Assembly (NCBI GenBank): GCA_016209735.1
Contig: JACQVN010000025.1
Coordinates: 1 to 39,410, forward strand
Source: Candidatus Methylomirabilota bacterium
Lineage (GTDB): Bacteria; Methylomirabilota; Methylomirabilia; Methylomirabilales; 2-02-FULL-66-22
Reading direction: 5' to 3'
DNA length: 39,410 nucleotides
This document shows positions 21,722 to 29,639 of this stretch, in pieces. Made by a program: the position numbers and the translations under genes. The notes under the pieces were generated by a model, which was given only the letters and a program-made list of their open reading frames with translations, was not told the origin of the DNA and did not search any database. Every line of letters starts with the position of its first letter. Positions within the stretch are counted from its first letter, which is position 1.

Positions 21722-22312
21722 TCACTCGATATCCTCCCGGCTGAAGCTGGGGGGCTCCCCCTTCCCCCCGCCGCCCACCTTCCCGAGATCCGCCAGAAAA
21801 CTCCGGGCTGCGTGGACCCCCATCAGCTTGAGGAGATGGTTGCGAGCCGCCACCTCGACCAAGATGGCGATGCTCCGGCCCGCGGACACCGGAACGCAGA
21901 GCCGCGGGATGGCCACACCCAGGATGACCTGGGTCTGCTCTTCGATCCCCAGCCGATCGTACTCCGCGTCGGGGCGCCACGGCTCGAGCTGAATGACCAG
22001 CTCGATCCGCTTTCGGTAGCGGATGGCGGTGACGCCAAACAGCTCGCGGACGTTGATGATGCCCAGGCCGCGGACCTCCATGTGGTGGCGCGCCTGGGCG
22101 GACCCCCGCCCGATGATGATCGCCTCTCCCTGGCGGACCACCTCCACCACGTCGTCGGCGACCAGCCGGTGTCCGCGGCTCACCAGGTCCAGGGCGCACT
22201 CGCTCTTGCCGGTCCCACTCTCTCCCAGGAGCAGCACCCCCACCCCGAACACATCCACCAGGACACCGTGCAGCATCGCGCTGGACGCGTTGTCAGGATC
22301 CGGCACGCTCAC
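21722..22312 (-). CDS. hprK: HPr kinase/phosphorylase, short form lacking the N-terminal domain
   Basis: Catalytic domain of HprK, 196 residues against about 310 in Firmicutes. It begins just before HGVLVDVFGVGVLLLGES (catalytic His15). Walker A is GESGTGKS (30-37), the catalytic segment RGHRLVADD (46-54) and the HprK signature MEVRGLGIINVREL (78-91). The HPrK_N domain is absent and no open frame for it precedes. The GTG start overlaps the hpf stop (GTGA). Short HprKs are known in Alphaproteobacteria, so it is probably active on Ser61 of the local HPr. Confidence 0.92.
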   Translation of the reverse strand: MSVPDPDNASSAMLHGVLVDVFGVGVLLLGESGTGKSECALDLVSRGHRLVADDVVEVVRQGEAIIIGRGSAQARHHMEVRGLGIINVRELFGVTAIRYRKRIELVIQLEPWRPDAEYDRLGIEEQTQVILGVAIPRLCVPVSAGRSIAILVEVAARNHLLKLMGVHAARSFLADLGKVGGGGKGEPPSFSREDIE

Positions 22313-22886: not shown

Positions 22887-24329
22887 TCAGTATCGCTTCC
22901 GCCGGCTCGACGAAGGGATTTTCAGTTGGCTGCGGTACTTGGCCACGGTGCGGCGGGCGATCTCGATGGCATGCTCTTTCCGCAGCCGCTCCACGATCTT
23001 CTGATCCGACAGCGGCCGGCCATCATCCTCGCCCGTCAAAAGCTTGTGGATCAGGTCCTTCACCTTGAGCGAGGAGACGGCCTCGCCCCCCGCCCCCGGG
23101 ACCCCTCGATGGAAGAAATACTTCAATTCCAGGAGCCCCTGGGGGGTGTGGACGTACTTGTTGGTGGTGACGCGGCTCACCGTCGACTCGTGCATGCCGA
23201 TGTCGTCGGCCACTTCCTTCAAGGTGAGGGGGCGCAACGCCGTGATCCCTCGCTCCAGGAAGCCGCGCTGGAACTTCACCAGGCTCATGGCGACCTTGTA
23301 CATCGTGCGCTGCCGTTGCTCGATGCTCCGGATGAGCCAGAGCGCCGATCGCATCCGTCCTTCGACGTACTCCCGCACCTCCCGCGCCCCTCCTGTCTTG
23401 TCGGCCAGGATGGCCCGGTAGTAGGGGCTGACGCGCAGTCGCGGCAGCCCCTCGTCGTTCAGGAGCACCACAAACTCCTGATCCACCTTCATGATGTAGA
23501 CGTCGGGGGTGATGTAGCGCGGCTCCTCGGTGCTGAAGGTGAGGCCGGGCTTCGGCTCCAATCGGCTGATATATTCCCTGGCCTCTTGGATCTCCTTCGG
23601 GGAGGTCCCCAAACGGTCGGCCAGCTTCTCCCAGTGCCGACCGTCCAGCTCCGGGAGATGGTCGGCGATCAGCTTCTGGACCAGGGGGGGCGCATCCCGG
23701 CGGCTCTCCAACTGCAGGGTCAGGCACTCCCGCAGATCGCGAGCGGCCACTCCGGCGGGCTCGAACCCTTGGACATGCCGGAGCGCCTCTTCCAGGCGGG
23801 GGAGCGACACGCCGGAGGCAGCAGCCAGCTCTCCGAGCCCCCCCTGCAGGTAGCCCGCCTCATCCAGATCGCCGATGATCAGCGTGCCCAGACGGAGGAG
23901 TTCCGGATCGGAGCTGCTCAGGTGGAGCTGAAAGAGCAGGTGGTCCACGAGGGAGCGGGGCTTCGTGAGGTGTAACTCGGGGTCGATCCGCTCGAATTCC
24001 TCTCGGGGGATCGGGGGGCGGTAATCGGAGGCATCCTGCAGATAGTTATCCCAGTCGAAGTCCTGGATCCGGTCCGCTTCCGCCGTCCCCGATTCGGCGT
24101 CCCCCACTTCGCTGGGCGGGCCCTCTTCCTGGGTCAGGCGGGCCTCTTCCCCATCCTCCTGGACCTCCTCCAGCACCTCCTCCAGCACGGGATTCTGCTC
24201 CATCTGCTGGTGGAGCTCCTGGAGGAGTTCGAGACGGGAGAGCTGCAGGAGGCTGATCGCCTGCTGCAGCATCGGCGTCATGATCATCCGCTGCGTCTGC
24301 AGCATGCGGAGCTTCGCGTCGTATGCCAT
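22887..24329 (-). CDS. rpoN: RNA polymerase sigma-54 factor
   Basis: Sigma-54, 480 residues. Region I is Gln/Leu-rich (QTQRMIMTPMLQQAISLLQL). An acidic region II follows (about 58-85). The core-binding domain and HTH include ADDIGMHESTVSRVTTNKYV. The RpoN box ARRTVAKYR sits near the C-terminus. All expected parts are present. Targets would be -24/-12 promoters with an AAA+ activator; no convincing -24/-12 site was found in this window. Confidence 0.97.
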   Translation of the reverse strand: MAYDAKLRMLQTQRMIMTPMLQQAISLLQLSRLELLQELHQQMEQNPVLEEVLEEVQEDGEEARLTQEEGPPSEVGDAESGTAEADRIQDFDWDNYLQDASDYRPPIPREEFERIDPELHLTKPRSLVDHLLFQLHLSSSDPELLRLGTLIIGDLDEAGYLQGGLGELAAASGVSLPRLEEALRHVQGFEPAGVAARDLRECLTLQLESRRDAPPLVQKLIADHLPELDGRHWEKLADRLGTSPKEIQEAREYISRLEPKPGLTFSTEEPRYITPDVYIMKVDQEFVVLLNDEGLPRLRVSPYYRAILADKTGGAREVREYVEGRMRSALWLIRSIEQRQRTMYKVAMSLVKFQRGFLERGITALRPLTLKEVADDIGMHESTVSRVTTNKYVHTPQGLLELKYFFHRGVPGAGGEAVSSLKVKDLIHKLLTGEDDGRPLSDQKIVERLRKEHAIEIARRTVAKYRSQLKIPSSSRRKRY

Positions 24330-24346: not shown

Positions 24347-25099
24347 TTACCCGAGCGAGAACCGCTGCCCGAGGTAGACCTCGCGCGCCCGCTCGTCGGC
24401 CGCCAGTTCCCCGGCCGTTCCCGCCAAAAGGATCTTCCCCTCGTGAATGATGTAGGCCCGGTCCACGATCTGCAGGGTCTCCCGCACGTTGTGGTCGGTG
24501 ATCAGCACGCCGATTCCGCGCTGCTTCAACTGCGCGATGATCTCCTGGATCTCGGCGATGGCGATCGGGTCAATGCCGGCAAAGGGCTCGTCCAGCAGGA
24601 TGAAGGTCGGCTCCGTCGCCAGGGCCCGACTGATCTCCGCCCGCCGTCGCTCCCCGCCGGAGAGCGTGTAGGCGCGGTGCGTTGCCAGGTGGCCGATGTC
24701 CAGCTCCTCCAAGAGTCGCACGGTCCGGCGCCGCCGCTCCGGCGCCGGGACGCCGCGCGCCTCCAGGATCGCCAGAACGTTCTCCTCCACGGTCAGGCGA
24801 CGAAAGATGGAGGGTTCCTGCGGCAGGAACCCCAGTCCGCGGCGGGCCCGTTCGTGGACCGGCAAGCGGGTGATCTCTGTGCCATTCAGCAGCACGCGCC
24901 CGCCGTCGGGGCGGATGAATCCCAGGATCATGTAGAAGGCCGTGGTCTTGCCGGCCCCATTGGGACCCAGGAGCCCCACCACCTCGCTGGCATCCAGGTT
25001 CAACGAGAGATCCGACACCACCACGCGGCGGCGGAACGCCTTCACCAACCGGTCGGCAACGAGCCGCTGGGGCTTTCCGCCGCCGTGTGCCGTCGTCAC
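24347..25099 (-). CDS. lptB: LPS export ABC transporter ATP-binding protein LptB
   Basis: ATPase of the LptBFG lipopolysaccharide extractor, 250 residues. Walker A is GPNGAGKT (45-52), Q-loop Gln94 (FLPQEP), signature LSGGERRR (146-153) and Walker B FILLDEP (167-173). FAGIDPIAI and [10 protein letters not shown] are LptB-typical. It is followed closely by rpoN and preceded by lptA, as in most Gram-negatives. Confidence 0.97.
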
Positions 25100-25109
25100 C
25101 GGGCGAGCC

Positions 25110-25622
25110 TCAGCGTCGGGGGGCCTGCGGGGCTCCCGCCTCGCTTCGCTTGGGATAGAGAACCACGTTCACCCGCTCCCCTTGGCAGCCTTCCACTGCG
25201 CTTCGCTCCTCGCGCAGGAGCAGACTGATCTTGCAGCCCGTCACCACGTCGCTGTCCTGCCAGATCTTGGGATGTCCCAGCAGTACGACCCGTGCGTCCC
25301 GCGGCGTATACTCGGCCCGGTCGGAGGCCCCCCGGCGCTCGCCGTAGGTGATGCGGACGTTGCCGGTCGCAACGGCCCGCTCCAGATCCTCCATGCGCTC
25401 GTCGAACAGAAAATCGATCTGATCTGCCAGGATGCTGAGCCCACGCCCCCGATCGACGGCCGATACATTGCCCCGATACACGGCCAATCGGCTTTTGCGG
25501 TTCACTTCCAGGTTGTCCGCGGAAATCGTGATGGGGCTCTTCTCCTCGGCCGCCCAGGAGAGGCCCGCCGTCGCCGCCCCACAACAGAGTATTGCCGCCA
25601 GCATGTACTCACACGCTCTCAT
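25110..25622 (-). CDS. lptA: LPS transport periplasmic protein LptA
   Basis: LptA/OstA-fold protein, 170 residues, forming the periplasmic beta-jellyroll bridge for LPS. The N-terminal signal peptide is [24 protein letters not shown], likely cleaved after about residue 24. [23 protein letters not shown] and [21 protein letters not shown] are the conserved strands. The ATG at 25622 overlaps the lptC stop (ATGA), with GGGGAG upstream. Confidence 0.92.
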
Positions 25623-26203
25623 GGGGACGCTCCCCTTCGCCCCGTCCCCGGCGCCGCGCCGCTCGGCTGGAGGTACGAGGTGATATTCTGGAAGATACGC
25701 ACGCGCTCGAGGCTGGTCTCGGCGTCCATGCCGCGGCCTTGCGTCACGAGGTTCCCCCGGCTGATCGTCACCGGGCGGTCGGTCACCAGGCGGCGGGACG
25801 CGGCAAGCCAACGGACCGACTCCGTCTCCAGTTGCGAGCCCTGGTCGGAGCGCGCCACCACCGCACCGTCCAGGCGAACATCCTTCGTCTTCAGGTCCAC
25901 AGTGGCCCGATCCGCCGTGCACCGGAGTTGCCCCTGGTTGAAGTACAGCACCACCACCACCGGATTGGTGACCCGGGAGAGGATACCGGTGCCCTCCGCC
26001 TCCCGCATTTCGACCTGATCCGCCCAGACCTCCCACAGCACGGACTCTCCCCGCATCTCTACGAGATGGATCTGGCGGAGCACCAAGTCCGGCGGGCCTG
26101 ACCCCATGGCGCCCGCTGTGGCGCCCGCCTGCGCCTCGGGGGCCGCCACAGCAAACCGAAGGAGAAGTCCGAGGAGGATGATTGTCTGGAGGCATCGACG
26201 CAT
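25619..26203 (-). CDS. lptC: LPS export protein LptC
   Basis: LptC-family protein, about 194 residues, with an N-terminal signal/anchor (IILLGLLLRFAVAAPEA). The jellyroll region includes IHLVEMRGESVLWEVWADQV, LDGAVVARSDQGSQLETESVRW and GNLVTQGRGMDAETSLERVRI. It is expected to hand LPS from LptBFG to LptA. The ATG at 26203 has AGGATGAG upstream; the ATG at 26212 is an alternative. It is first in the lptC-A-B-rpoN cluster. The usual upstream kdsC/kdsD are replaced by the aldehyde dehydrogenase-like gene. Confidence 0.88.
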   Translation of the reverse strand: MRRCLQTIILLGLLLRFAVAAPEAQAGATAGAMGSGPPDLVLRQIHLVEMRGESVLWEVWADQVEMREAEGTGILSRVTNPVVVVLYFNQGQLRCTADRATVDLKTKDVRLDGAVVARSDQGSQLETESVRWLAASRRLVTDRPVTISRGNLVTQGRGMDAETSLERVRIFQNITSYLQPSGAAPGTGRRGASP

Positions 26204-26215
26204 TATGCTCATCCT

Positions 26216-26242
26216 ATAACACATTGGCACGCAAAATGTAAA
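26216..26242 (-). promoter_or_regulatory. possible promoter upstream of lptC
   Basis: The minus strand shows TTTACA, then 15-17 bases, then TGTTAT/TTATAG, immediately upstream of the lptC start. The spacing is imperfect and any transcript would have almost no leader. 26243-26334 holds nothing else. Confidence 0.3.
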
Positions 26243-26334: not shown

Positions 26335-27876
26335 TCAGGACCGCGGTCGCTCCTGCCCGCCGGGGGCGGACCCCACGGGCAGTTCTGTGCTCGCACCGCC
26401 CGCCGAAGGACTGGGAATCCGTCGCCAGCCGCGACCGGGTCGCAGCGAGACGGATCGCCACTCCGCATATGCTCCCAGCCCCGCCCCACCGCTCTCGCCC
26501 TCTCGGTACCAGGGCACGGCCGGGCCGAATCCGCCGGTACCGATCGGCGCATTGACCGTGACCGCCCGCACCGCGGCCCGGTCGATGGCCCGGCACGCCC
26601 GATCCAGGCGCTGGGTATACACGGCCAGGCTGACCCCTATCCTGATCCGCTCCGCGATCTCCAGGCCTTCTTCCATCCCGCGCATCGTCAAGAGGACCAG
26701 GGTCGGGCCGCAAGCCGGCTCGCGGGCTGCCCGCATGGTCGCACTCCCCTCCGCCAATACGGTTGGAGCATAGAAGAAGCCCTTGCGGTATTCCCCCTCG
26801 CGGAGCACCTCGCCCCCGCACAATAGTTTCGCCCCCTCCTTGAGTGCCAGGCGGGTAAAGGCGTGCGTCCCCTTGAGGCGGCCGTCGTTGATGAGGGGGC
26901 CGAGATCTACACCGGGCGAGCGGCCGTCCCCTATCTGGAGGGATTGGACGCGCGCGGCGATCCGTTCCGTGAACTCCAGCACGATCTTCTGGTGAACCAG
27001 GATTCGCGTGGCGGGCGCGCGTCGCTGGCCGGAGGTAGCCATTCCCCCGCTCACCGCCCCCTCCAGGGCCAAGTCCATGTCGGCGTCATCCAGGACGATG
27101 GTGGCGCTTCGGCCTCCGAGGTCCAGCCGGACCGGCTTGTGCTCCGCCGCACAGGCAATGGCCACCTCCCGGCCGACGGCGCTGGAGCCCGAGAACGACA
27201 CCAGGGCAACATCCGGGTGCCGGACCAACGGCGCTCCCGCTTCTTCCCCTGTGCCGTGCACGACCCCCAAGACCGCCGAGGGAATACCGGCCTCGAGCAC
27301 GAGATCCGCCAGTCGGGTGGCGACCAGCGGGGAGTCTTCTGCTGGCTTCAAGACCACGGGGCACCCGGCCGCCAAGGCGGGAAGGACCTGATGTACGACG
27401 CCACCCAGTGGGTGGCACCACGAGGCGATGACGGCAACGACCCCTACGGGCACCCGCATGCCGAAGGCAAGGCGCTCTCGGGCGTCCCGAGGCGGTCCGC
27501 CAGGATCGGGTCGCATGCCCTCCCCGGCGTAGTCGGCAACGGCCTCCAGCGCATCCCGGACCTCGGCCCGGGCCTCCACCTGGACTTTCCCCGTTTCCCT
27601 GACGATCAAGTCGACGAAAGCCTCTTGCCGCGTCCGCAACAGGTCTGCTGCCCGCAGCAGGAGGGAGGCGCGCTCCGAGGAAGGCACGTCGCGCCACACC
27701 AATTGGGCCGCCCGGGCGACCTCCACCGACCGATCGACGTCCCGATAATCCGAGCGGGGAAAGGCCCCGATAAGCTCTGTCCGGTTGGCGGGATTGATGT
27801 CGTGGAATACCCCGCTGCCGACAGCATCCACCTGTTTCCCGTCAATCAGGTTCTTGAAGCGATCCGTCACGGCCAC
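26335..27876 (-). CDS. aldehyde dehydrogenase-fold protein lacking catalytic residues
   Basis: Full-length ALDH-superfamily protein, 513 residues. The scaffold is intact: GAFPRSDYRDVDRSVEVARAA near 37; VVLKPAEDSPL (174-184) with cofactor Lys177; FSGSSAVGRE (228-237) for the Rossmann site. Each core catalytic residue is changed. The Asn of PWNFP is Cys154 (SWCHPL). The general base Glu of ELGG is Asp252 (LDLGGRS). The nucleophile Cys of GQxCxxxxR is Arg286 (GQRRAPATR). The second Glu of EExFGP is Pro387 (REPACGP). A C-terminal extension of about 40 residues is Pro/Gly/Ser-rich. The frame is open throughout, so this looks like a pseudoenzyme rather than a decayed gene. Start GTG at 27876; GTG at 27870 is possible. 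Confidence 0.85.
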   Translation of the reverse strand: MAVTDRFKNLIDGKQVDAVGSGVFHDINPANRTELIGAFPRSDYRDVDRSVEVARAAQLVWRDVPSSERASLLLRAADLLRTRQEAFVDLIVRETGKVQVEARAEVRDALEAVADYAGEGMRPDPGGPPRDARERLAFGMRVPVGVVAVIASWCHPLGGVVHQVLPALAAGCPVVLKPAEDSPLVATRLADLVLEAGIPSAVLGVVHGTGEEAGAPLVRHPDVALVSFSGSSAVGREVAIACAAEHKPVRLDLGGRSATIVLDDADMDLALEGAVSGGMATSGQRRAPATRILVHQKIVLEFTERIAARVQSLQIGDGRSPGVDLGPLINDGRLKGTHAFTRLALKEGAKLLCGGEVLREGEYRKGFFYAPTVLAEGSATMRAAREPACGPTLVLLTMRGMEEGLEIAERIRIGVSLAVYTQRLDRACRAIDRAAVRAVTVNAPIGTGGFGPAVPWYREGESGGAGLGAYAEWRSVSLRPGRGWRRIPSPSAGGASTELPVGSAPGGQERPRS

Positions 27877-28305: not shown

Positions 28306-28362
28306 CTACTTCTTCTTCGCCGCCTTCTTGGCGGGCTTCTTCGCGGCTTTCTTCGTCGCCAT
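28306..28362 (-). CDS. lysine-rich micro-ORF, copy 1 (18 aa)
   Basis: Encodes MATKKAAKKPAKKAAKKK and then TAG. Nine of 18 residues are Lys, the rest Ala, Pro, Thr. A strong Shine-Dalgarno GGAGGTGA lies upstream of the ATG. The peptide looks like one repeat of a histone-H1-like C-terminal tail (AlgP/HctB style) made as a stand-alone product. Compared with copies 2 and 3 the DNA has diverged and gained an AKK segment while the protein pattern is kept, which suggests selection on the peptide. It lies about 65 bases downstream of copy 2. Possible roles are binding DNA, RNA, polyphosphate or acidic surfaces; none is shown. Confidence 0.65.
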   Translation of the reverse strand: MATKKAAKKPAKKAAKKK

Positions 28363-28427
28363 TCGTCATTCACCTCCTCGCGCAGGGAACAGGGATTCGC
28401 TAGGGTCGTCCACCGAATCATCCCCGC

Positions 28428-28478
28428 TTACTTCTTCTTCTTCGCCGGCTTCTTGGCAGCAGCCTTCTTCGTCGCCAT
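28428..28478 (-). CDS. lysine-rich micro-ORF, copy 2 (16 aa)
   Basis: Encodes MATKKAAAKKPAKKKK and then TAA, preceded by AAAGGAGGTGAG, a near-perfect Shine-Dalgarno. The ORF and its leader (28429-28498) are identical over 70 bases to the copy-3 unit at 28538-28607, so this is a recent tandem duplication. The stop differs (TAA against TAG). Confidence 0.68.
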   Translation of the reverse strand: MATKKAAAKKPAKKKK

Positions 28479-28536
28479 GGATTCACTCACCTCCTTTCCT
28501 TCAAGATGCGACAAACTCCTCACCTCCCTGTAGCCC

Positions 28537-28587
28537 CTACTTCTTCTTCTTCGCCGGCTTCTTGGCAGCAGCCTTCTTCGTCGCCAT
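28537..28587 (-). CDS. lysine-rich micro-ORF, copy 3 (16 aa)
   Basis: Same peptide as copy 2, with the same AAAGGAGGTGAG leader, ending in TAG. It is the promoter-proximal copy, starting 43 bases after the stop of the HEPN gene on the same strand. The three ORFs could therefore be the tail of the MNT-HEPN transcript. An upstream in-frame extension into the HEPN region is open but lacks a ribosome site, whereas the ATG here has an ideal one. Confidence 0.68.
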   Translation of the reverse strand: MATKKAAAKKPAKKKK

Positions 28588-28630: not shown

Positions 28631-29080
28631 TCAGAGAAGCACCAACTGGGGGTTTCGAGTCCGGGCGATCTCGAGAATTCGCTCCGTGAAGAGCTGTGCG
28701 TCCTTGATAGCCCCCTCGACCTCATAGCGCGAGGTCGGTTGTCCCGGCTCCTCCAAGATCAACTGCCATCGGCGCCGCATGCGGTCAAAGGCGTTCACGA
28801 GCGGCCGACCCTCCTCGCCGAGAATCTCCCCGATCAGGCGAACCACCGTTCGCTGCTGATCGCGACCCCTGGGACGCAATCCCTCCGCCACGATGGCCGC
28901 CCGAGCCGCACGTAACATGGCCTGGTAGGCAATGGCGTAGGCCCATTCACGGTCGAGGCTGGCCGTGGCCCGCGCCGTTGCCAGATCCTTCTGCGCCCTC
29001 CCGAGCAACGCGCCCACCTGGGGGAAATTGGGCTTAATCTCCTCCACCAATCCCTTCTCACGCAACTCCTCATACGCCAT
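28631..29080 (-). CDS. HEPN domain protein
   Basis: All-helical protein of 149 residues of the HEPN superfamily (LGRAQKDLATARATASLDREWAYAIAYQAMLRAARAAIVAEG...). It is the usual partner of MNT nucleotidyltransferases in toxin-antitoxin modules. The toxic RNase motif R-x4-6-H is not seen: the corresponding helix reads NAFDRMRRRWQLILEE without His. The position often occupied by HHRT is QQRT. It may therefore be a non-toxic or regulatory form. Its start overlaps the 3' end of the MNT gene by 11 bases, and the micro-ORF array follows at once. Confidence 0.8.
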   Translation of the reverse strand: MAYEELREKGLVEEIKPNFPQVGALLGRAQKDLATARATASLDREWAYAIAYQAMLRAARAAIVAEGLRPRGRDQQRTVVRLIGEILGEEGRPLVNAFDRMRRRWQLILEEPGQPTSRYEVEGAIKDAQLFTERILEIARTRNPQLVLL

Positions 29081-29639
29081 CGCCTTGACCGATCAGCAAG
29101 GTGGAACGCCCGCCGAGCACTTCGGTAACGAAGGGATCTGCATCTGTCTTCCTGCGCTCAAATTCCCCTTCGTCGAACACGGTGTAATTGATCTCCCGAC
29201 TCAATTCCCCTTCCAGGCGGGTGATGGTCTCGTTCAGAGCGGCAAGATCTACGCGTCCCACGATGAGGACCGGGATCGCTCCCGTGCCCTCCCTCGGCGC
29301 ATGGGCGTTCATGCTATACATCCAAGCCTGTCGCAAGCCGGTGAGATTCTTCAACGCCGCGGCCAAGGCCCCTTGCATCCCAACGGTCTTGGTGATGAGG
29401 CCCTTCACTTCCGGGTAGATGGCCGAGTCCTTGCTGACGGAGTAATACCGGAGATTTCCGACTTTTTCGCTGACCAAAAGTCCCAGTCGCTCTAGATTGT
29501 CGAGCTCACGCTTGATTCCGGAGATATCCCGACCAAGATCCCTGGCAATCTGTCGAACATAGAAGTTGGCGTTCTCTCGGGTAAAAAAGAGTCGCAGGAT
29601 ATCTACCCTCGTCTTGGATGAGAAGAGTCTTTCCAGCAT
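29070..29639 (-). CDS. winged-helix / MNT nucleotidyltransferase-fold protein, active site degenerate
   Basis: 189 residues. The N-terminal winged helix (about 1-75; LERLFSSKTRVDILRLFFTRENANFYVRQIARDLG) should bind DNA. It is followed by an MNT fold with REINYTVFDEGEFERRKTDADPFVTEVL. Against the usual GS-x(9-11)-DxD pattern, the GS is Ser109-Met110 and the two Asp are Ala121 and Pro123 (GAIPVLIVG), while alignment length is unchanged. Nucleotide transfer is therefore unlikely; the protein may act as repressor and HEPN-binding partner. ATG 29639 has AGGAGAGG upstream and a clear promoter. Confidence 0.82.
   Translation of the reverse strand: MLERLFSSKTRVDILRLFFTRENANFYVRQIARDLGRDISGIKRELDNLERLGLLVSEKVGNLRYYSVSKDSAIYPEVKGLITKTVGMQGALAAALKNLTGLRQAWMYSMNAHAPREGTGAIPVLIVGRVDLAALNETITRLEGELSREINYTVFDEGEFERRKTDADPFVTEVLGGRSTLLIGQGDGV

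Follow-up and report, generated by a model that had tools for sequence, protein, structure and literature searches.

In a contig of 39,410 nucleotides, the whole of which was analysed and is called the window here, we found an aldehyde dehydrogenase (ALDH) gene that is probably best explained as a pseudoenzyme made in place, i.e. an ALDH, single-copy and syntenic, whose fold is retained for some purpose other than catalysis and which most likely binds NAD(P) or an adenylate. The window comes from a Methylomirabilota/NC10 MAG (G000; 62 contigs, 68.7% complete), and two other genomes of the same genus (G005 and G006) carry orthologues that have also lost catalytic residues; these three genes and their products are referred to as dead. 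Comparison with relatives directly supports the loss of catalytic residues, orthology, synteny, the shared clade, purifying selection and the sparing of the cofactor site's adenosine half as features of the proposed pseudoenzyme; cofactor sensing or scaffolding, the roles offered by a preliminary description of this DNA, is what we infer. The features are listed in Table 1.

Table 1. Positions in the window of the pseudo-ALDH gene, its altered and retained sites, and neighbouring features
Feature	Coordinates	Strand	Basis
Pseudo-ALDH gene	26335..27876	-	GTG start, 513 aa, PF00171 match, AF2 model, structural matches
Codon 154: oxyanion-hole Asn to Cys (Ala in G005, G006)	27415..27417	-	Alignment to relatives
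Codon 252: general-base Glu to Asp (Asp also in G005, G006)	27121..27123	-	Alignment to relatives
Codon 286: nucleophile Cys to Arg (Trp in G005, G006)	27019..27021	-	Alignment to relatives
Codon 387: nicotinamide-ribose Glu to Pro (G005, G006 still Glu)	26716..26718	-	Alignment to relatives
Residues 172-185: retained Lys177-Pro-x-Glu180 segment, adenosine half of cofactor site	27322..27363	-	ω, invariant counts
Residues 204-244: retained F228-x-G-S...G235 Rossmann segment	27145..27267	-	ω, invariant counts
Promoter-like TTTACA-N-TATAG directly before lptC	26214..26242	-	Sequence, 6/7 genus loci searched
lptC	25619..26212 (start inferred at 26212 or 26203)	-	PF06835, sequence
ABC ATPase, lptB by position	24347..25099	-	PF00005
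rpoN (sigma-54)	22887..24329	-	Profile match
HEPN-domain protein, conserved upstream neighbour	28631..29080	-	PF05168, synteny
HTH protein, conserved upstream neighbour	29070..29639	-	Pfam matches just below curated cut-off, synteny

When the ORF was read and translated from 27876 to 26335, no internal stop was seen. PF00171 matched residues 23-444 with 391.9 bits (cut-off 23; E 4.5e-117), and by this match and the ALDH fold (5eyu aligned over 475 residues, Z 54.1) the window protein is a member of the ALDH superfamily. It is of the single-domain betaine aldehyde dehydrogenase (BADH)/alpha-ketoglutaric semialdehyde (alpha-KGSA) dehydrogenase type; on NF042993 (alpha-ketoglutaric semialdehyde dehydrogenase) it scored 337.7 bits, below the equivalog cut-off of 770, and the canonical G001 orthologue scored 562 bits. 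At the C terminus (26335-26440, minus strand), the protein has roughly 20-30 extra residues, absent from the G005 and G006 proteins and modelled with low confidence at 489-512. A C-terminal frameshift was considered there and rejected, as the alternative frames gave no match by eye.

At positions 154, 177, 252, 286, 387, and 389, the window protein has Cys, Lys, Asp, Arg, Pro, and Cys, where canonical ALDHs have Asn, Lys, Glu, Cys, Glu, and Phe; the G005 and G006 proteins have Ala, Lys, Asp, Trp, and Glu at the first five of these positions and Ala or Leu in place of Phe389. Thus, the residue list of the preliminary description (substitutions at 154, 252, 286, and 387, with Lys177 retained) was right, and of the FSGSSAVG loop that it reported as retained, Phe228, Gly230, Ser231, and Gly235 are kept but Thr229 is now Ser. 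Its suggestion of orthologues with the same four substitutions did not hold, in that only E252D is common to the three proteins and the other two have A154, W286, and an unchanged Glu387. All six canonical residues were present in 79 of the 83 aligned rows (duplicates L001, L004, and L020-L023 and matches below 150 bits were left out), the four exceptions being L039, which is truncated, and three dead rows, namely the window with L009 and L010. N154, E252, C286, and E387 are invariant across the 15 canonical orthologues. For the roles of the residues in the active site and at the cofactor, we assume those given in section 6 of PMC8160307 together with general structural knowledge of ALDHs. The Cys nucleophile, general-base Glu, and oxyanion-hole Asn, as needed for an active ALDH, are all absent (C286R, E252D, and N154C); no thiohemiacetal would form and the nicotinamide side would not be positioned, so that ALDH activity of the window protein, judged from the mechanism in PMC8160307, would be very unlikely. 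Loss of catalysis is, on these residues, well supported, and the protein fits by sequence the definition of a pseudoenzyme in PMC10211241 as a homologue without conserved catalytic motifs.

The changes are not confined to the active site, as the preliminary description had claimed. Among the 203 positions invariant in the 15 full-length canonical orthologues (the partial row G067 was left out), 84 are changed in the window protein and 70 in each of the G005 and G006 proteins, with 42 changed and 90 kept in all three. Against this background, the loss at catalytic positions in the window protein (4/4; hypergeometric P 0.028) is a mild enrichment; G005 and G006 each have 3/4 changed (P 0.12 in either case).

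An orthologue was matched in all seven family genomes searched, that of the window included; within the genus, the proteins of G001-G004 are canonical and those of the window, G005, and G006 are dead. Wider searches covered 35 genomes of the order and 95 genomes of the phylum, 22 of the latter with a match at 1e-90. The curated set (n = 19) holds the three dead proteins, 15 full-length orthologues outside the dead clade, all canonical at all six positions, and the partial row G067, which is canonical wherever residues are present. Identity between the dead proteins and their canonical same-genus orthologues is 47-56%. In the ALDH tree, built from 22 of 34 aligned rows, the dead proteins group together in a single clade (support 100/99) whose sister is the group of canonical same-genus proteins (98/94); the dead stem has a length of 0.30 and the dead tips of 0.90 (window), 0.33, and 0.62 changes/site, compared with 0.02-0.15 for canonical tips. 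Because long branches could attract, we built an independent rooted tree of five flanking genes, in which the dead genomes again form a clade (86/88) on a short stem (0.026), and an unrooted six-gene tree split the dead and canonical groups at 100/100. The simplest reading, short of proof for the window lineage, is one loss common to all three in their common ancestor; loss shared by G005 and G006 rests on A154, D252, and W286, which are identical in both. Just 9 residues occur in every dead protein but not in the canonical ones, and hence there is no strong new motif to point to another function. The dead gene is the sole orthologue in its genome. When the dead-clade genomes were searched for an active close paralogue, identity was 33-35% for the best other ALDHs in G006, and in G005 no other match reached 1e-60, other ALDH-family matches in both being distant; a dead subunit that regulates such a paralogue was rejected on this ground.

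We then consider whether the dead gene is still under selection. All three dead ORFs are open, without an indel in alignment columns 5-440, and the intact frame first described is thereby borne out. Neutral evolution at the synonymous rate of the flanking genes would be expected to leave 5.4, 6.2, and 8.0 stops on the three tips (P of none 0.0045, 0.0019, and 0.00032) or, with a conservative, GC-richer third-position composition, 3.1, 3.3, and 3.5 stops (P 0.046, 0.036, and 0.030). In a codon model of our own implementation, with no site classes within partitions and with branch lengths, and so dS, borrowed from six concatenated flanking genes, ω was 0.105 for the canonical branches and 0.210 for the dead ones (lnL -6190.58); fixing the dead ω at 1 (lnL -6856.76) was rejected by 666 lnL units. 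The fixed-dS fits left out G002, and the flank set left out the gene at 21722, which only four taxa had. Flanking genes show no such shift in ω (for example, 0.070/0.059 for rpoN and 0.041/0.044 for lptB). We fixed dS to the flanking genes because a free-branch fit, which gave an ω of 0.029 for the dead ALDH, returned a dS of 6.3, judged inflated against the 0.57-1.68 obtained from the flanks for the same tip. The fixed-dS ω may, in turn, be somewhat too high because fourfold sites differ somewhat more in the ALDH than in the flanks (0.66 vs 0.55 for G000-G005 and 0.65 vs 0.49 for G005-G006). On the G005 and G006 tips, i.e. after their shared loss, ω was 0.237.

The dN/dS comparison that the preliminary description had called for therefore speaks for selection on a catalytically dead ALDH, and it appears well supported from these alignments that purifying selection on the protein continued after catalytic loss. 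With the frame intact in 3/3 genes and an ω of 0.21, which is not near 1, the gene does not look like a pseudogene. The same description had allowed for a recent pseudogene of this strain if orthologues proved normal. Those outside the clade are indeed normal (15/15), but two same-genus orthologues are dead and their tips are under selection, and we reject a pseudogene of one strain. Constraint is clearly relaxed, since ω is twice the canonical value, branches are long, and so many invariant residues are lost (84, 70, and 70 in the three proteins). These observations, and the absence of two neighbouring catabolic genes described below, would agree with slow decay, in which a useless gene drifts to a pseudogene and what conservation remains stems from its active past and from slow turnover. 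We regard such decay as unlikely, given that ω is far below 1 on tips that postdate the loss, that neither stops nor indels occur in any of the three genes where several stops were expected, and that the adenosine-half segments remain at full constraint.

To locate this constraint, the codons were partitioned into active-site segments, adenosine-half cofactor segments, and the rest. With segment bounds set by position around presumed ALDH motifs rather than from coordinates, and set after the alignment had been inspected, ω on dead/canonical branches was 0.082/0.068 in the adenosine-half segments (55 codons), 0.285/0.075 in the active-site segments (66 codons), and 0.221/0.118 in the rest (315 codons). 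Equality of dead and canonical ω was not rejected for the adenosine-half segments (2ΔlnL 0.22) and was rejected for the active-site segments (21.8) and the rest (26.3). Invariant residues kept in all three dead proteins number 24/28 in the adenosine-half segments versus 66/175 elsewhere (Fisher P 2e-6), and 12/44 in the active-site segments versus 78/159 elsewhere (P 0.011); K177, P178, E180, F228, G230, S231, and G235 are kept throughout the dead clade, and P152, N154, E252, C286, and F389 are lost. Among sliding windows, the lowest dead-branch ω (0.052-0.064) fell in the segment of residues 204-244, and the sliding windows 25-54 and 345-374 also show strong conservation among the dead proteins (0.079 and 0.077). 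Random block placements gave a dead ω as low as that of the adenosine-half segments in 2/137 cases and a dead/canonical ratio as low in 28/137; the low dead ω is unusual by this comparison and the ratio is not. Overall, the adenosine half appears to be spared selectively and the nicotinamide half eroded, although the late choice of segments, the unremarkable ratio and the two other conserved stretches count against this reading.

The AF2 model of the window protein (36 sequences) has a pLDDT of 88.2 and a pTM of 0.87, with low confidence at about 450-460 (pLDDT about 41 at 451-460) and over the last residues. A canonical orthologue (G003) modelled in the same way (pLDDT 87.4, pTM 0.83) is confident throughout its C-terminal domain. 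The top structural matches are betaine aldehyde dehydrogenases (Z up to 54.1). In the model, the ALDH fold is probably intact and the C-terminal substrate loop is predicted to be degraded. One match, 3zqa (Z 53.7), carries a title that names P. aeruginosa BADH with the C286A mutation and NADPH; in this relative, loss of the nucleophile alone thus does not prevent cofactor binding. Retention of the adenosine-half segments speaks for a nucleotide-binding role of some kind, as far as sequence can indicate one.

We propose the following course of events. A single-copy, syntenic ALDH would have lost its nucleophile Cys, oxyanion-hole Asn, and general-base Glu at its old locus, the loss dating, on the simplest view, from an ancestor that three Methylomirabilota species share, with purifying selection acting on the protein since. 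The dead protein would still fold as an ALDH subunit and may bind NAD(P) or another adenylate via the retained adenosine-half site; its role would be that of a binding or scaffold protein, possibly redox- or nucleotide-sensing, within a putative oligomer and with a putative partner.

A changed enzyme, with the pocket rebuilt (e.g. as a hydrolase, lyase, or isomerase) around Asp252, residue 286, or the Glu387 of two members, seems to us distinctly improbable. Asp252 is present in 3/3 proteins, Trp286-Arg287 in two, Glu387 is kept in G005 and G006, and the fold is kept in the AF2 model, as such an enzyme would lead one to expect; however, the active-site segments have the highest dead-branch ω of the three classes, and residues 154, 286, 287, 288, and 389 vary from member to member, where a newly built active site would be expected to be conserved.

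The gene order HTH-HEPN-ALDH-lptC-lptA-lptB-rpoN-hpf was found in all three dead genomes, and canonical relatives have the same order with OCD/mu-crystallin-family and acyl-CoA dehydrogenase (ACAD) genes inserted. In G001, G003, and G004, both lie between ALDH and lptC; in G002, the contig stops after the OCD gene and the ACAD gene is on a different contig; in G019 and the f3 genomes G014, G016, and G017, OCD precedes and ACAD follows ALDH, and in G015 OCD precedes ALDH and the contig is then cut. In families f3 and f5 (L150, L153, L154, L160, and L161; 32-37% identical to the G001 copy), we observed OCD on the upstream side of ALDH, and in genus g1 (L102, L104, and L105) on the downstream side; ACAD (74-75%) lies downstream in f3, f5, and g1 wherever the contig reaches it. 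The shift in OCD position is a rearrangement or replacement inside a small catabolic cluster. OCD and ACAD orthologues were searched for in the window, G005, and G006 genomes and were absent from all three, distant OCD homologues (35-36% identical) occurring elsewhere in G005 and G006. In G022 and G027, ALDH stands directly before lptC without OCD or ACAD and its residues are canonical, for which reason pathway loss as the cause of catalytic loss was rejected and co-loss of the two genes can have been at most permissive.

With no OCD or ACAD gene in between, the ALDH lies immediately upstream of lptC in 3/3 dead genomes, and its frame might be kept only as a lead into the lptC-lptA-lptB-rpoN operon, through polarity or translational coupling and not for the protein. 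This we hold to be very improbable, because lptC has its own promoter-like site, found in dead and canonical loci alike and nearly invariant (window; L100 5905, L101 9258, L102 5206, L104 5130, and L105 5811), the seventh genus locus, L103, ending before it; moreover, the low ω means selection on amino acids and not on openness alone. No more than about 11 bases separate the end of the site from the presumed start of lptC, which suggests a very short or absent lptC leader. An assembly or sequencing artefact is barely credible, for although all members come from MAGs (contamination 7% in G005 and 10% in G006, and G000 incomplete as noted above), three separate assemblies agree in gene order, kind of loss, and a frameshift-free frame.

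The most persistent genomic neighbours of the ALDH are the HTH-HEPN pair. The HTH gene overlaps the HEPN gene by 11 bases, and the pair is linked to ALDH in families f1, f3, f5, and f6. Between HEPN and ALDH, we observed three tandem mini-ORFs (window 28306-28587, minus strand: 28587-28537, 28478-28428, and 28362-28306) encoding lysine/alanine-rich peptides of 16-18 aa, with MATKKAAAKKPAKKKK twice and MATKKAAKKPAKKAAKKK once, each preceded by a strong GGAGGTGA-type ribosome site. Such mini-ORFs were seen in 10/11 loci scanned (families f3, f5, and f6 included), two each at the same place in the 9 loci besides the window and none in L155. In the order, at least four families show the ALDH linked to the pair and the micro-ORFs. 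A more specific form of our proposal, in which a single-copy metabolic ALDH turned, without duplication and in place, into an NAD(P)- or adenylate-sensing protein acting with the HTH-HEPN pair and the lysine-rich micro-ORFs, is a speculative possibility.

NmrA/HSCARG-type proteins are non-catalytic NAD(P) sensors of the SDR fold, and one is reportedly an 'NADPH Sensor HSCARG', as a paper title names it. The likeness to the window protein is in idea only, i.e. a dehydrogenase fold kept for cofactor sensing; the fold family differs, and sensing by the window protein is hypothetical. The canonical orthologues of the genus and order (alpha-KGSA/betaine-aldehyde type, NF042993-like) share locus, fold, and adenosine-half motif with the dead proteins and differ in that 15/15 retain N, K, E, C, E, and F; the four canonical same-genus genes adjoin an OCD gene, and 3/4 also an ACAD gene (the fourth contig is cut), whereas the dead genes have neither. 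PMC8160307 describes human ALDH16 as lacking the catalytic Cys and as a proposed binding protein; according to the same paper, ALDH16 also carries at its C terminus a large additional domain for cofactor binding that is non-functional. The comparison with mammalian ALDH16A1 made in the preliminary description (bacterial LsALDH16 belongs to the same group) stands as an idea, since the dead clade resembles human ALDH16 in loss of the catalytic Cys, but the window protein is of BADH/alpha-KGSA-dehydrogenase type with one ALDH domain (residues 23-444 of 513) and no additional C-terminal ALDH-like domain; the dead clade is bacterial and lost Asn, Glu, and Cys in place. A dead ALDH that affects partners is a pseudoenzyme mode in the relevant passages of PMC10211241, where an inactive ALDH2 subunit regulates the heterotetramer; unlike that subunit, the dead proteins occur in genomes with no detected active close paralogue. 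In the open-access literature searched, we found no description of a catalytically dead clade of bacterial single-domain ALDHs.

The usual picture of a pseudoenzyme is that of a spare copy which gene duplication has set free. In the present case, a syntenic gene without duplication appears to have lost its chemistry while intact sister orthologues survive in the same genus, and the one locus therefore offers a before-and-after pair of a dead gene and orthologues with intact active sites. Automated annotation would label the pseudo-ALDH an aldehyde dehydrogenase. We conclude that it is, by strong evolutionary evidence from the sequences, a lineage-specific pseudoenzyme under measured selection and not just a strain-level pseudogene, with a function that we infer, and that the constraint map, in which the adenosine half is spared and the active site released, makes a specific prediction on what the fold may be kept for.
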